Below, piece by piece: positions 3,649 through 40,182 of a DNA stretch of 45,172 nucleotides; position 1 is the first letter of the stretch; each line of letters starts with the position of its first letter. The notes under the pieces were generated by a model. That model saw only the letters and a program-made list of their open reading frames with translations, ran no database searches and was not told the origin of the DNA. The stretch is from the IMG/VR virus record IMGVR_UViG_3300028800_000149, positions 1 through 45,172 of that record; one strand, written 5' to 3'. A program made the translations under genes and the position numbers. Origin of the DNA: a virus.

Positions 3649-3686
3649 ATATCATATTTTAATTTCTAACAAAAGGAGTGTTTGAA

Positions 3687-4283
3687 ATGTGCAAACTTAC
3701 AACAACGTTTAATGAACTTAGAAAACACGGTGCTTGTGTTCCTGGTTACAAAAAGCTTGCTGAGTTTTTAGGTGGTGTTTCTGCTTACGGTGAAGATAAA
3801 CCTATTTCTCTGTTAACAATTCTGGAAAGTAACGGAACTGCTGATTGCATTTGGAGTTTAAGAGCAGCTTTAGAAGCTGAAAAAGATTATCTTGCAAGAA
3901 TGATTTCCGCTGATTGTGCGGAAAGCGTTTTGCATTTGTATACGGCCAAATATCCCGATAACGATAAACCGGCTAAAGCAATTGAAGCAGCAAGAAAATT
4001 TGCAAAAGGTGAAATTACAAGAGAAGAATTAATAGAAGCAAAGGATGCTGCTGCTTATGCTGCTGCTAATGCTGCTGATGCTGCTAATGCTGCTGCTGCT
4101 GCTGCTGATGCTGCTTATGCTGCTGCTAATGCTGCTGATGCTGCTTATGCTGCTGCTGCTGATGCTGCTAATGCTGCTGCTGCTGCTGCTTATGCTGCTG
4201 CTGATGCTGCTTATGCTGCTGCTGCTAGGTTGAAAGAAAGAGATAAACAAGCCGATATTATTAAAGCTTGGCTTACAAAATAA
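3687..4283 (+). CDS. Imm5-like protein with long alanine repeat (198 aa)
   Basis: Start chosen at ATG 3687, 9 bases after AAGGAG; a GTG nine bases earlier overlaps that site. The N-terminal 120 residues carry the signature of the family often annotated 'putative immunity protein' (Imm5-like): DCIWSLRAALE, then ADCAESVLHLYTAKYPDNDK and the helix AIEAARKFAKGEITREEL. Residues of about 125-185 are alanine repeats punctuated by single Asp, Asn or Tyr, which probably form a long helix or helical solenoid. A short basic tail (ARLKERDKQADIIKAWLTK) closes it. Such proteins recur in phages and mobile elements; the substrate is unknown. It has its own promoter. Confidence 0.75.
   Translation: MCKLTTTFNELRKHGACVPGYKKLAEFLGGVSAYGEDKPISLLTILESNGTADCIWSLRAALEAEKDYLARMISADCAESVLHLYTAKYPDNDKPAKAIEAARKFAKGEITREELIEAKDAAAYAAANAADAANAAAAAADAAYAAANAADAAYAAAADAANAAAAAAYAAADAAYAAAARLKERDKQADIIKAWLTK
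4046..4228 (+). repeat. GCT/NAT triplet repeat inside the Imm5-like gene
   Basis: About 60 consecutive codons are almost only GCT (Ala) interrupted by GAT, AAT or TAT. The interrupting codons differ from each other in the first base only. Sub-blocks such as GCTGATGCTGCT and GCTTATGCTGCT recur at several offsets, as expected from replication slippage or unequal exchange. The repeat should vary in length between relatives. Confidence 0.85.
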
Positions 4284-4641: not shown

Positions 4642-4875
4642 ATGAAAGTTAATCTTTATAAATGTCCTGTTTGCGGTGACAGCTATGGAATGCTGGAAAC
4701 GGCCAAAGGTGCAAAACACCCTGTAACTTGTCTATGTGATAAAGTTCACACAAAAGCGGTTAAGTTCTTATTCGGTATTGTGGGCATTGCGTTTACTTTC
4801 CTGGTTATGATCCAGGTAGAAAAAAATGTTCACATGCTGAAAAAAGTTGTTGACACTCTAAAAAGCATTTGGTAA
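4642..4875 (+). CDS. zinc-ribbon membrane protein (77 aa)
   Basis: ATG 4642 follows AAGGAG by eight bases. Residues 8-11 are C-P-V-C and a C-L-C-D-K-V-H follows at about 43-49: two metal-binding knuckles. A single hydrophobic helix (FLFGIVGIAFTFLVMI) occupies roughly residues 55-70, followed by a lysine-rich amphipathic tail (HMLKKVVDTLKSIW). By charge the zinc domain and the C-terminal helix could lie on either side of the inner membrane. The function is unknown; a membrane-anchored regulator or host-exclusion factor is possible. A promoter for the next gene overlaps its 3' end. Confidence 0.65.
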   Translation: MKVNLYKCPVCGDSYGMLETAKGAKHPVTCLCDKVHTKAVKFLFGIVGIAFTFLVMIQVEKNVHMLKKVVDTLKSIW

Positions 4876-4878
4876 AAC
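4850..4878 (+). promoter_or_regulatory. promoter for the 4931 gene and probably the ncRNA
   Basis: TTGACA, 17-base spacer, TAAAAC, overlapping the end of the upstream gene. No terminator is seen between the 4931 gene and the structured region, so a transcript from here could run to the terminator at 6345. Confidence 0.55.
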
Positions 4879-4930: not shown

Positions 4931-5656
4931 ATGGCAACCAAAGCAGAAAAAGCAGCAGCACAAGCTCTTAGCATGGCAATGAAAGAACTTCCGGCAATCG
5001 TTGCGGCAACCGTTGCAGGTAGCTTTGTGTTTACTTCCAAAGCTGTGCATCTTCCCCTCATTGCTGCCGGTCTGGTCCTGGTGAATGAAACCGATGTTCC
5101 GGTAAATGAAGCCGGTGAAAGCGCAACTAAGGCAACTGAAGCAGGGATTGCTAAAGCTGCTGAACTTGCTGCCGCTGCCGGTACTGTTACCGCTGAAGCT
5201 GCTGCACCTGCTAAACTGGTTATCGTTCTGGAAGATGATGTTGCAATGCCGGAAGTTGTTGCAACCAAAGGTGGCGGTGTTGGTCGTGAAAGCATCTACC
5301 CCTTCAAAACGATGAACGTCAACCAATCCTTCTTTGTTCCGGCAACTGACAAGATGCCGAAACCTTGGGAAAGCCTTGCAAGTGCAATTGCAAACGCTGA
5401 AAAGAAGTTTGCAGTTGTTAAAACCATTCCGCTCACCAATGAAGACGGTTCTGCAAAGCTTGATGCTGAAGGTAAGCAGGAATACAAAACCGTGATGAAA
5501 ACGACCAAAAGCCGCGAAAAGGGCAAAGAAGGCCAGGAAAAACAGGTTCCGGTAACGACTAAAACCCGCACCTTCAAGGCTCTGAAAAGCTCTGAAGAAT
5601 ACCCTAAAGGCTCCGGCATTACCGTTGACGGTGCTAGGATTTGGAGAACTGCATAA
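4931..5656 (+). CDS. phage protein of unknown function, probably abundant (241 aa)
   Basis: ATG follows AAGGAG. The N-terminal half is alanine/valine-rich (AAQALSMAMKELPAIVAATVAG, here split as helix and strand) and the middle is low-complexity Ala/Glu/Lys. The C-terminal half begins YPFKTMNVNQSFFVPATDKM and ends in GITVDGARIWRTA, a 'YPF...SFFVP...GxRIWR' layout shared by many phage proteins of unknown role, often near replication genes. Codon choice is richer in GCC, CTG, CCG and AAC than its neighbours, resembling the capsid genes, which suggests high expression. It lies directly upstream of the structured RNA region with no terminator between. A DNA-binding or scaffold-like role is possible but unproven. 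Confidence 0.75.
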   Translation: MATKAEKAAAQALSMAMKELPAIVAATVAGSFVFTSKAVHLPLIAAGLVLVNETDVPVNEAGESATKATEAGIAKAAELAAAAGTVTAEAAAPAKLVIVLEDDVAMPEVVATKGGGVGRESIYPFKTMNVNQSFFVPATDKMPKPWESLASAIANAEKKFAVVKTIPLTNEDGSAKLDAEGKQEYKTVMKTTKSREKGKEGQEKQVPVTTKTRTFKALKSSEEYPKGSGITVDGARIWRTA

Positions 5657-5728
5657 CAATTAGGGGTTGCAAGTTAGGTTGAATAGTTACTATTCGGCAA
5701 ACCTTGCAGCTACTAAGTTTAACCTTGT

Positions 5729-5790
5729 TGCTTTGCTCTAGCTAAAACAATATCGGCATAGACCGTAAACCAATATGCTAGAGCAAAGCA
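5729..5790 (+). repeat. 14-bp perfect inverted repeat (RNA stem)
   Basis: TGCTTTGCTCTAGC at 5729-5742 is exactly complementary to GCTAGAGCAAAGCA at 5777-5790. The 34-base interior holds a small CGG-CCG hairpin. The stem can extend outward by two more pairs (one G-U), in competition with the adjacent 20-bp stem. Confidence 0.85.
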
Positions 5791-5905
5791 GCTTAACACA
5801 TTGCTTTAACTAAGTGATTACCTGCTAGCTGACACCGCTAGAAATATAGCATTGCCGGATGAAATGGTGAAAGGGGTGCTAATCGGTTAAAGCAATGTGT
5901 TAAGC
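5791..5905 (+). repeat. 20-bp perfect inverted repeat (RNA stem)
   Basis: GCTTAACACATTGCTTTAAC at 5791-5810 is exactly complementary to 5886-5905. The 75-base interior has its own potential pairings (GATTA 5816-5820 with TAATC 5880-5884; GCTA 5837-5840 with TAGC 5847-5850). It abuts the 14-bp stem without a gap, which would allow coaxial stacking. Confidence 0.85.
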
Positions 5906-6010
5906 TTCAAACTATCGGTTAGGCGATTGTCAACTAATAGTTGTTTTGGTTCAGCGAATTGATTAAATGAGCAACAGAGAATTGCTAGCCAGGATAGAAG
6001 CTAAATTTAT

Positions 6011-6086
6011 TGGAGTGTAGCCAAGTTGGTAAGGCAACAGATTTTGATTCTGTCATTCCCTGGTTCAAATCCAGGCACTCTAGCCA
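6011..6086 (+). tRNA. tRNA-Gln (anticodon UUG)
   Basis: A full cloverleaf: acceptor TGGAGTG / CACTCTA (one G-U), D arm AGCC...GGC, anticodon stem ACAGA/TCTGT with loop TTTTGAT giving anticodon TTG, T arm CCTGG-TTCAAAT-CCAGG, discriminator G and an encoded CCA. U1-A72 is the usual glutamine identity pair. It reads CAA and CAG; CAA is very common in this genome's genes. It sits within the structured region, so it would have to be cut out of a longer transcript by RNase P and 3' nucleases. Confidence 0.95.
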
Positions 6087-6306
6087 TTTTGCTAAAGTTG
6101 TTGCTGTTTGGAGTCGATAGCGGTTGCAACTTTGGTAAACTCTCCTAGTGCTGAGACACTAGGAGCTACAGGAGCCGTCTTAGTCTTGGCTTCATCCATA
6201 CCGGACTATGGGCCGCTCTAAAAAGTCCCGCCACAAGGCAATCCTGGGAGCCGTTAGGCGGGAAAGGTGGTTAGCTGAATCCACCTTACATATCAAAATC
6301 GGTATG

Positions 6307-6345
6307 AAAAGCCTCTGAACTTAAAATGTTTAGGGGCTTTTTGTA
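6307..6345 (+). terminator. strong intrinsic terminator ending the ncRNA region
   Basis: A 14-bp stem with two G-U pairs (6307-6320 with 6328-6341), 7-base loop TTAAAAT, closing in a T run. It separates the structured RNA from the late promoter at 6356. Confidence 0.85.
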
Positions 6346-6355
6346 TTTTATGCTG

Positions 6356-6385
6356 TTGACAACTCATTAAGAAATGCCTTATCAT
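6356..6385 (+). promoter_or_regulatory. late operon promoter
   Basis: TTGACA, 18-base spacer, TATCAT, directly after the terminator and about 40 bases before the first gene of the packaging/structural operon. Confidence 0.7.
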
Positions 6386-6426
6386 GCAACCGCCTTTCTT
6401 TTAGTTGTATCCAAGAGGTAAAGCGA

Positions 6427-6621
6427 ATGAACTATCAAGAAGAAAATGAGTTATTGTTAGGGCAAGTTGCTTTACCAAATCTTTATGATTACTTCCATGC
6501 AATTCCTTCTGATGTAACAATAAGCATTTACTGCAATCAATGTTGTAAAAATTGTTTGCTGTATGTGAAAATAATTAAACCGATTGTTAATTTAGAAGAA
6601 GATTATGAAAACACCTTTTAA
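6427..6621 (+). CDS. small cysteine-containing protein (64 aa)
   Basis: AGAGG lies upstream of ATG. The product is acidic at both ends (MNYQEENELLLGQVALPNLY at the N terminus, LEEDYENTF at the end) with a central CNQCCKNCLLYVK, a Cys cluster suggesting metal binding. It is the first gene of the late operon and overlaps the terminase small subunit gene by 17 bases, so it may be coupled to it. I do not recognise a family; a packaging accessory role is suggested only by position. Confidence 0.65.
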   Translation: MNYQEENELLLGQVALPNLYDYFHAIPSDVTISIYCNQCCKNCLLYVKIIKPIVNLEEDYENTF

Positions 6622-14327: not shown

Positions 14328-14615
14328 ATGAGAATTTACACTAAAAAAGCTTTTGGTTTTGTCAATCCTGATCCTTCTAAACAGGTCAACGGCGCAAGGG
14401 AAGTTGTTAAAACCTCCCCTCTTGGTTTCCATGATGTACCTGAATGGGTTGCTGAAGATGATATGTTTAAATGGGGTAAGCAAGACGGTGATATCGAAGA
14501 AATTAAGGTTGAAGTTGCTGTTGCAGGTAAAGATAAGGCTTCTGCTCCTTCTACCGATGATAAAAAGCCTGAAGGTTGGACCGCTCCTTCTACCGATGCG
14601 GCAAAAGGGAAATAA
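14328..14615 (+). CDS. small protein at the head-neck junction (95 aa)
   Basis: Begins behind AAGGAGAG. The N-terminal part is a compact beta-like segment (MRIYTKKAFGFVNPDPSKQV, later PLGFHDVPEWVAEDDMFKW); the C-terminal 35 residues are charged, flexible and contain a short repeat of A-P-S-T-D. Genes at this position often encode small head-tail joining or head fibre-base proteins. The 'W...DxMFKWxKxDGDI' pattern is seen in small phage proteins next to DUF4054, but I cannot name the family. Confidence 0.65.
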   Translation: MRIYTKKAFGFVNPDPSKQVNGAREVVKTSPLGFHDVPEWVAEDDMFKWGKQDGDIEEIKVEVAVAGKDKASAPSTDDKKPEGWTAPSTDAAKGK

Positions 14616-14617
14616 CA

Positions 14618-15151
14618 ATGAGTCAACCTAATCTCAATAATTGGCTTGACGCTGCTTATGGGATTAGCGATTATTCCGCTAGCGGGGTTGTTGCTAATGC
14701 GTCTAACATTCGCTTTGGTGACAATCCCGCTTACGGAATTTCAGATTTTGTTGCTATTTATCCGCAATTCGGAACTGTTGCAGAAGATGGAAGTTTTACA
14801 GGTGTTGTGCCGCAAGCGATTTTGCAAATGTTCATAAATCTAGCTTCTAGTTGTATTCAACAAGCAAGATGGTTTGATTTGTGGCATTTTGCAATGGCGC
14901 TTTTTGTTGCTCATTATGCAACACTTTATTTGCAATCTTCTACTCCTACCGGTGCAAATGCTAAAACTGTTGGTCAAGCAGGAATGGCTAAAGCTATTCA
15001 AGTTTCCAAAGCTGTTGACGGTGTATCGGCTTCTTATCAAACAATCTCTAACGGATGGGAAGCATGGGGAAGCTGGAATTTAACCTCTTTCGGGCAACAA
15101 CTCATTTCACAAGCAAGTATTGTGGGAATGGGTGGAATGTATATTTGTTGA
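14618..15151 (+). CDS. head-tail connector, DUF4054-type (177 aa)
   Basis: DUF4054 proteins sit between capsid and tail in contractile-tailed phages, probably as head-completion/adaptor. Signals: DFVAIYPQFG, then VPQAILQMFINLASSCIQQA and the helix WHFAMALFVAHYATLYLQ with the ALFVAHY core typical of the family. I used ATG 14618 behind AAAGGGA. Its TGA overlaps the next start by one base (TGATG). Confidence 0.85.
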   Translation: MSQPNLNNWLDAAYGISDYSASGVVANASNIRFGDNPAYGISDFVAIYPQFGTVAEDGSFTGVVPQAILQMFINLASSCIQQARWFDLWHFAMALFVAHYATLYLQSSTPTGANAKTVGQAGMAKAIQVSKAVDGVSASYQTISNGWEAWGSWNLTSFGQQLISQASIVGMGGMYIC

Positions 15152-40095: not shown

Positions 40096-40182
40096 TGGTG
40101 CCTGTTACCGGGATCGAACCGGTATGATTTTGCAATCGACAGATTTTAAGTCTGTTGTGTCTACCAATTCCACCAAACAGGC
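40096..40182 (-). tRNA. tRNA-Leu (anticodon UAA)
   Basis: Minus strand, 87 bases including encoded CCA. Acceptor GCCTGTT / AACAGGC with discriminator A, D arm with GGTAGAC, anticodon stem ACAGA/TCTGT and loop CTTAAAA giving TAA, a class II variable arm GATT-GCAA-AATC, and T arm ACCGG-TTCGATC-CCGGT. It reads UUA, a codon favoured in this AT-rich genome. It lies between two protein genes of the leftward operon, so it must be processed from the operon message. Confidence 0.95.

Follow-up and report, generated by a model that had tools for sequence, protein, structure and literature searches.

The DNA analysed here (the window) is a 45,172-base IMG/VR phage contig, whose + strand carries at positions 5657-6345 a stretch that is most safely described as a long structured RNA that encloses a tRNA. 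The explanation that we prefer, to which we give an even chance, is a long structured noncoding phage RNA, which is co-transcribed with the DUF7303 gene and has two domains around a processable tRNA in a scaffold-like arrangement. The stretch sits between the DUF7303 gene, whose stop is at 5656, and an operon of a small ORF, TerS, and TerL, and its GC content is 43%, compared to 36% genome-wide.

The folding of the whole predicted RNA is far more stable than that of shuffled sequences. The + strand has an MFE of -253.1 kcal/mol, compared with -189.7 ± 8.0 kcal/mol for the shuffles (z -7.9), and the reverse strand has an MFE of -212.9 kcal/mol (z -6.1), the lower energy of the + strand suggesting that the fold favours a + transcript. 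The first-pass annotation had described about 690 bases lacking a plausible protein gene and containing at least ten stems, and both statements hold, since no ORF of more than 40 aa is present on either strand and 18 helices of at least three pairs, including three in the tRNA, show a mean pair probability of at least 0.65. Of the two perfect inverted repeats that it reported, the 14-bp repeat (5729-5742/5777-5790) is exact as given and the one called 20 bp is in fact a perfect 21-bp repeat (5790-5810/5886-5906). The longest perfect inverted repeat in 1000 dinucleotide shuffles was 14 bp, which was seen once. When the genome was scanned in 200-nt windows, the lowest + strand z-score was tied between those starting at 5601 and 14601; the latter (14601-14800, z -6.4) equals the start of the RNA in folding and overlaps ORFs in the head-gene region.

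The 5' domain (5657-6008, +) gives a z of -6.6 when folded alone, and its well-defined part consists of the three elements P1, P2, and P3, with 5909-5996 being poorly defined. P1 (5660-5716) is predicted to be a hairpin with a UUAG/AAAC internal loop and a 9-bp inner stem, for which the mean pair probabilities are 0.92 and 0.99. P2 (5727-5792) could form a 16-bp helix, which includes the perfect 14-bp inverted repeat, with an 11/11 internal loop, and P3 (5790-5906) would be closed by the perfect 21-bp inverted repeat, which encloses a 75-nt inner region. The 3' domain (6087-6306, +) is made up of the predicted helices 6088-6139, 6142-6165, 6171-6219, 6226-6263, 6264-6287, and 6289-6306, and the sequence from 6087 to 6345 by itself has a z of -5.2. 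Of about 219 expected pairs, only about 3 join the 5' domain to the 3' domain, and the model thus predicts two separable domains flanking the tRNA. In the 3' domain, two hairpins have loops (6240-6249 and 6271-6280) with 8 self-complementary positions, as self-kissing loops do. The enrichment of such loops is at best marginal, with P values of 0.007 to 0.01 for their count and 0.125 for the fraction of loops in a test that was picked post hoc.

The tRNA in the middle is a tRNA-Gln(UUG) at 6011-6086 (+), which was found by ARAGORN with an encoded CCA and scores 63.7 bits with the Rfam tRNA model; it is preceded by 354 nt of the RNA and followed by 259 nt. Its sequence can be read as a full cloverleaf with the U1-A72 and G73 that glutamine tRNAs have, and was aligned to other phage tRNA-Gln sequences; the cloverleaf, the UUG anticodon, and the glutamine identity positions are all those of an apparently functional tRNA-Gln. 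The window holds a second tRNA, a tRNA-Leu(UAA) at 40096-40182 (-), amid reverse-strand genes, and TTA is the most frequent leucine codon across the ten genes counted. In a different viral contig, of 47.6 kb, a tmRNA gene (L111:8547-8895, -; 97.5 bits) adjoins tRNA-Phe, Trp, Gln, and Asn.

The transcription signals around the stretch are consistent with a single unit. A candidate promoter at 4850-4878 (+), TTGACA-17-TAAAAC, with a TGG before the second hexamer that resembles an extended -10 element, precedes the DUF7303 gene, and a comparable TTGACA element precedes the DUF7303 gene of another contig (L094). The DUF7303 / phrog_7597 gene itself (4931-5656, +; PF23978, E 8.6e-38; phrog_7597, E 1.9e-31) lies immediately upstream of the RNA. 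The N-terminus of its protein is weakly winged-helix-like, and its AlphaFold model (pLDDT 70.7, pTM 0.39) has no significant match in the PDB and no informative fold match. Further upstream, at 3678-4283 (+), a protein in this phage weakly matches the Imm5-like immunity families PF21805 and PF14423. At the other end, a putative intrinsic terminator (6307-6349, +) consists of a hairpin at 6307-6341 with a 14-bp stem and a 7-nt loop (-18.3 kcal/mol), followed by TTGTATTTT as a T-rich tail. The strict consensus scanner listed neither the candidate promoter nor this terminator. The tRNA-Gln and the terminator at the exact end are thus both found where the first-pass annotation had placed them. A sigma-70-like promoter (11/12) at 6356-6385 (+) would serve the next operon, in which a 64-aa ORF starting at 6427 leads into TerS and then TerL; both terminase genes were assigned via PHROGs, and the TerS is phrog_1482 of the Sf6 type. 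The likely promoter at 4850, the terminator near 6345, and the separate packaging promoter at 6356 suggest that the DUF7303 gene and the RNA are probably one transcription unit.

Nucleotide searches for homologues, which had been proposed as a route to covariation, returned an identical copy and no diverged relative. Covariation is what generally counts as proof that a structure is conserved. The sole copy found is on a 4.2-kb contig (L004), which is 100% identical to the RNA where aligned, and no covariation was counted because no diverged homologue was found. Relatives of the phage were checked by word-7 blastn, which recovers sequences at 40% simulated substitution, and the tRNA was masked in the later searches. 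Against INPHARED, blastn with the tRNA retrieved tRNA genes, and without it nothing credible. The relatives checked comprise 80 by TerL and six by DUF7303 from IMG/VR and 80 by TerL from GTDB bacterial genomes, and the best IMG/VR TerL relatives reach 68% identity across 223 residues and 65% across the full-length protein. No similar sequence was seen in the examined stretches of the TerL and DUF7303 relatives, of which some contigs end near TerL, and the phages with TerL 55-68% identical are without this RNA. In the relative with a 65% identical TerL, the inspected surroundings of TerS hold neither a tRNA nor a similar sequence. Five degenerate DNA patterns gave the L004 contig as the only real match in IMG/VR, and two single-sequence covariance models (R1 and R2) detected only the RNA itself over 2 Mb of loci. 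None was found in prokaryote genomes of two groups, which may not include the host, so that this empty result says little.

Several candidates from these searches were rejected. The word-7 blastn hits in L131, L126, L130, L125, L137, and L229 are taken as chance hits, those inspected falling in coding sequence. In L105, the sequence upstream of TerS shows neither similarity nor a tRNA, and the tRNA-Gln of L094 sits between genes without extra structure. A separate structured stretch (L014:1312-2109, -; z -5.6) is located about 3 kb before the TerL gene of a relative with a 55% identical TerL. It has repeated CTGCGAGA/TCTCGCAG motifs and perfect 14-bp and 12-bp inverted repeats, and it contains no ORFs of 50 aa and has no Rfam match.

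The main rival explanation, which is possible although we lean against it, is that the stretch is a structured tRNA precursor and 3'UTR of a DUF7303-tRNA transcript, in which the stems would be processing or stability signals. RNase III would cut the 21- and 16-bp duplexes, RNase P and 3' nucleases would free the tRNA, the terminator would end the message, and the flanking RNA would have no job afterwards. This is consistent with the RNA abutting the DUF7303 stop, since no + strand promoter-like site was found between them, and with the long perfect duplexes, which are typical RNase III substrates. The tRNA could also be useful alone, given the preference for CAA over CAG (111:30) in ten phage genes. 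Agathobaculum phage AB434P2 (L219; major capsid protein 55% identical), the closest named relative when capsid genes are compared, bears on this question as well. It carries tRNA-Ile, Leu(taa), Gln(ttg), Gly, and Pro directly upstream of TerL (L219:3341-3825), so that a tRNA-Gln(ttg) occupies the same slot, but as part of a tight, ordinary cluster without a large structured RNA, suggesting that this slot is a site for tRNAs, with the ornate part being optional. The cluster includes both tRNA kinds of the window (Gln and Leu). On the other hand, the same cluster shows that these tRNAs are encoded there with no such structure, and both P1 and the 3' domain, which packs several helices into 220 nt, far exceed what processing needs.

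An element acting at the DNA level, such as a cruciform, protein-binding repeats, or fresh inverted duplications, for example at a packaging or recombination site, is improbable. A perfect 21-bp repeat beside TerS/TerL could indeed be recent or selected as DNA. However, the + strand folds better than the - strand by 40 kcal/mol, so that pairing available to one strand only (G-U) adds to the fold, and the terminator and the tRNA share the + direction. Moreover, more than one repeat is involved, since the stretch has two that are unrelated to each other, along with several short helices.

Membership in known families was examined by cmscan of 5400-6500 against Rfam 15 (4227 families), with gathering scores and with E up to 10. 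No Rfam family other than tRNA matched in either setting, and introns, riboswitches, tmRNA, and OLE are rejected because none of them matched. The first-pass annotation had likened the layout to GOLLD and ROOL and pointed to an Infernal comparison with both Rfam models, and neither of them matches. For GOLLD (RF02032, gathering cut-off of 150 bits), there is no match up to E 10, even in a dedicated search with permissive filters. This negative is informative, since a true GOLLD in a Lactobacillaceae genome (L228), located near a tRNA-Asn, is picked up by that model with 173.4 bits (E 3.8e-49 / 4.3e-47). For ROOL (RF03087, 99.1 bits), there is likewise no match at gathering or up to E 10; this negative is weaker than that for GOLLD because no positive control gave a match. 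Membership in GOLLD is rejected, and membership in ROOL is rejected less firmly. Conversely, covariance models built from this RNA did not detect the GOLLD of L228, whose stretch has a z of only -1.1 in the nested energy model, indicating, against the -7.9 found here, a structure of a different kind. Unlike GOLLD, the RNA here appears from its predicted fold to be dominated by long near-perfect hairpins.

What the RNA appears to share with GOLLD is the layout, with two structured domains that are separable and a tRNA between them. This is the part of the earlier comparison that stands, and the likeness would be generic and not one of sequence. Both are phage-borne and many hundreds of bases long, and a tRNA sometimes lies in the GOLLD linker. 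GOLLD has its 5' and 3' regions in domains of their own, and the linker of GOLLD env-38 occupies 497-538 of 833 (PMC12286853). GOLLD is a homo-oligomeric cage whose expression increases in lysis. ROOL resembles the RNA in its origin from phage or prophage, its length of 500-700 bases, and its proximity to tRNA genes, but its 5' and 3' regions intertwine (PMC12286853), whereas the RNA here is predicted to keep the two apart. A GOLLD or ROOL so diverged that the Rfam models overlook it would fit the length, the phage origin, the position of the tRNA, and the separable domains, yet it is very improbable, because the GOLLD 3' region, described as universally conserved (PMC12286853), gives no score here up to E 10, and because of the 173-bit score of a true GOLLD, its non-detection by the models built here, and the different style of structure. 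A packaging RNA like phi29 pRNA, acting on the downstream terminase, is favoured by the position before TerS/TerL only and is hardly credible, since the terminator and the new promoter separate the RNA from the packaging operon, TerS belongs to the Sf6 type, which is not known to use an RNA, and close TerL relatives are without such an RNA.

Large RNAs outside the known families have been seen in other phages. Phage K has two large noncoding RNAs, lnc001 and lnc002, which adjoin tRNA genes (PMC9241854), and ICP1 has an abundant transcript of about 800 nt (PMC7567579), all of which are supported by RNA-seq. These examples indicate that such RNAs are real, expressed, and sometimes located beside tRNAs, whereas the RNA here is predicted from its sequence. 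The lnc002 region of Staphylococcus phage K (L138:17760-18583, -) has no Rfam family match and, with 8 shuffles, a z of -5.7 for its transcribed strand. The terminase genes are a few kb away from it, and the RNA here also precedes TerS/TerL. The phage K stretch has no sequence similarity to the RNA here; the phage K tRNAs are outside its RNAs and ICP1 has no tRNA, whereas here the tRNA is inside.

The preferred explanation, a co-transcribed scaffold-like noncoding RNA around a tRNA, is supported by the strand-specific folding, helices far beyond chance, the lack of an ORF above 40 aa, and the intact tRNA fold. It also draws on the putative terminator at the exact end with a promoter just after it, on domains predicted barely to pair across the tRNA, and, by analogy, on the phage K and ICP1 RNAs. 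Against it stand the lack of a diverged homologue, the relatives with 55-68% identical TerL that live without the RNA, the at best marginal enrichment of self-complementary loops, and the fact that GOLLD is not built from long perfect hairpins. As a possible mechanism, transcription would probably start near 4850, pass through the DUF7303 gene and the RNA, and end at the terminator near 6345, and the packaging operon would restart from its own promoter at 6356. The 5' (5660-6002) and 3' (6088-6306) domains are computed to fold independently around the complete tRNA-Gln, which RNase P and the tRNA 3'-end enzymes would probably recognise. The tRNA might then be kept as a built-in cargo or tether, or be excised, leaving two structured halves. 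By analogy with GOLLD and ROOL, and this is the weakest step, the body of the RNA could be a stable, abundant scaffold. It may self-associate through loop-loop contacts, and during infection it could store or protect the tRNA or engage the translation machinery.

Giant phage RNAs are known from only a handful of classes, whose purpose is still unsettled. Two of these classes build RNA cages, and in some GOLLDs tRNAs sit in the linker that faces the cavity. That the RNA here is a new large phage class unrelated to GOLLD and ROOL, with two autonomous domains around an embedded tRNA and perhaps acting as a homo-oligomer, is a tentative idea that we judge unlikely; its novelty is plausible but rests on one sequence, which is not a class. 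The stretch of about 690 nt is nevertheless a well-defined candidate for a large phage RNA. If the new class were true, it would represent an independent origin of a tRNA-holding RNA scaffold, and finding this layout in an unrelated RNA would suggest that the tRNA, and not the cage sequence, is the common theme.
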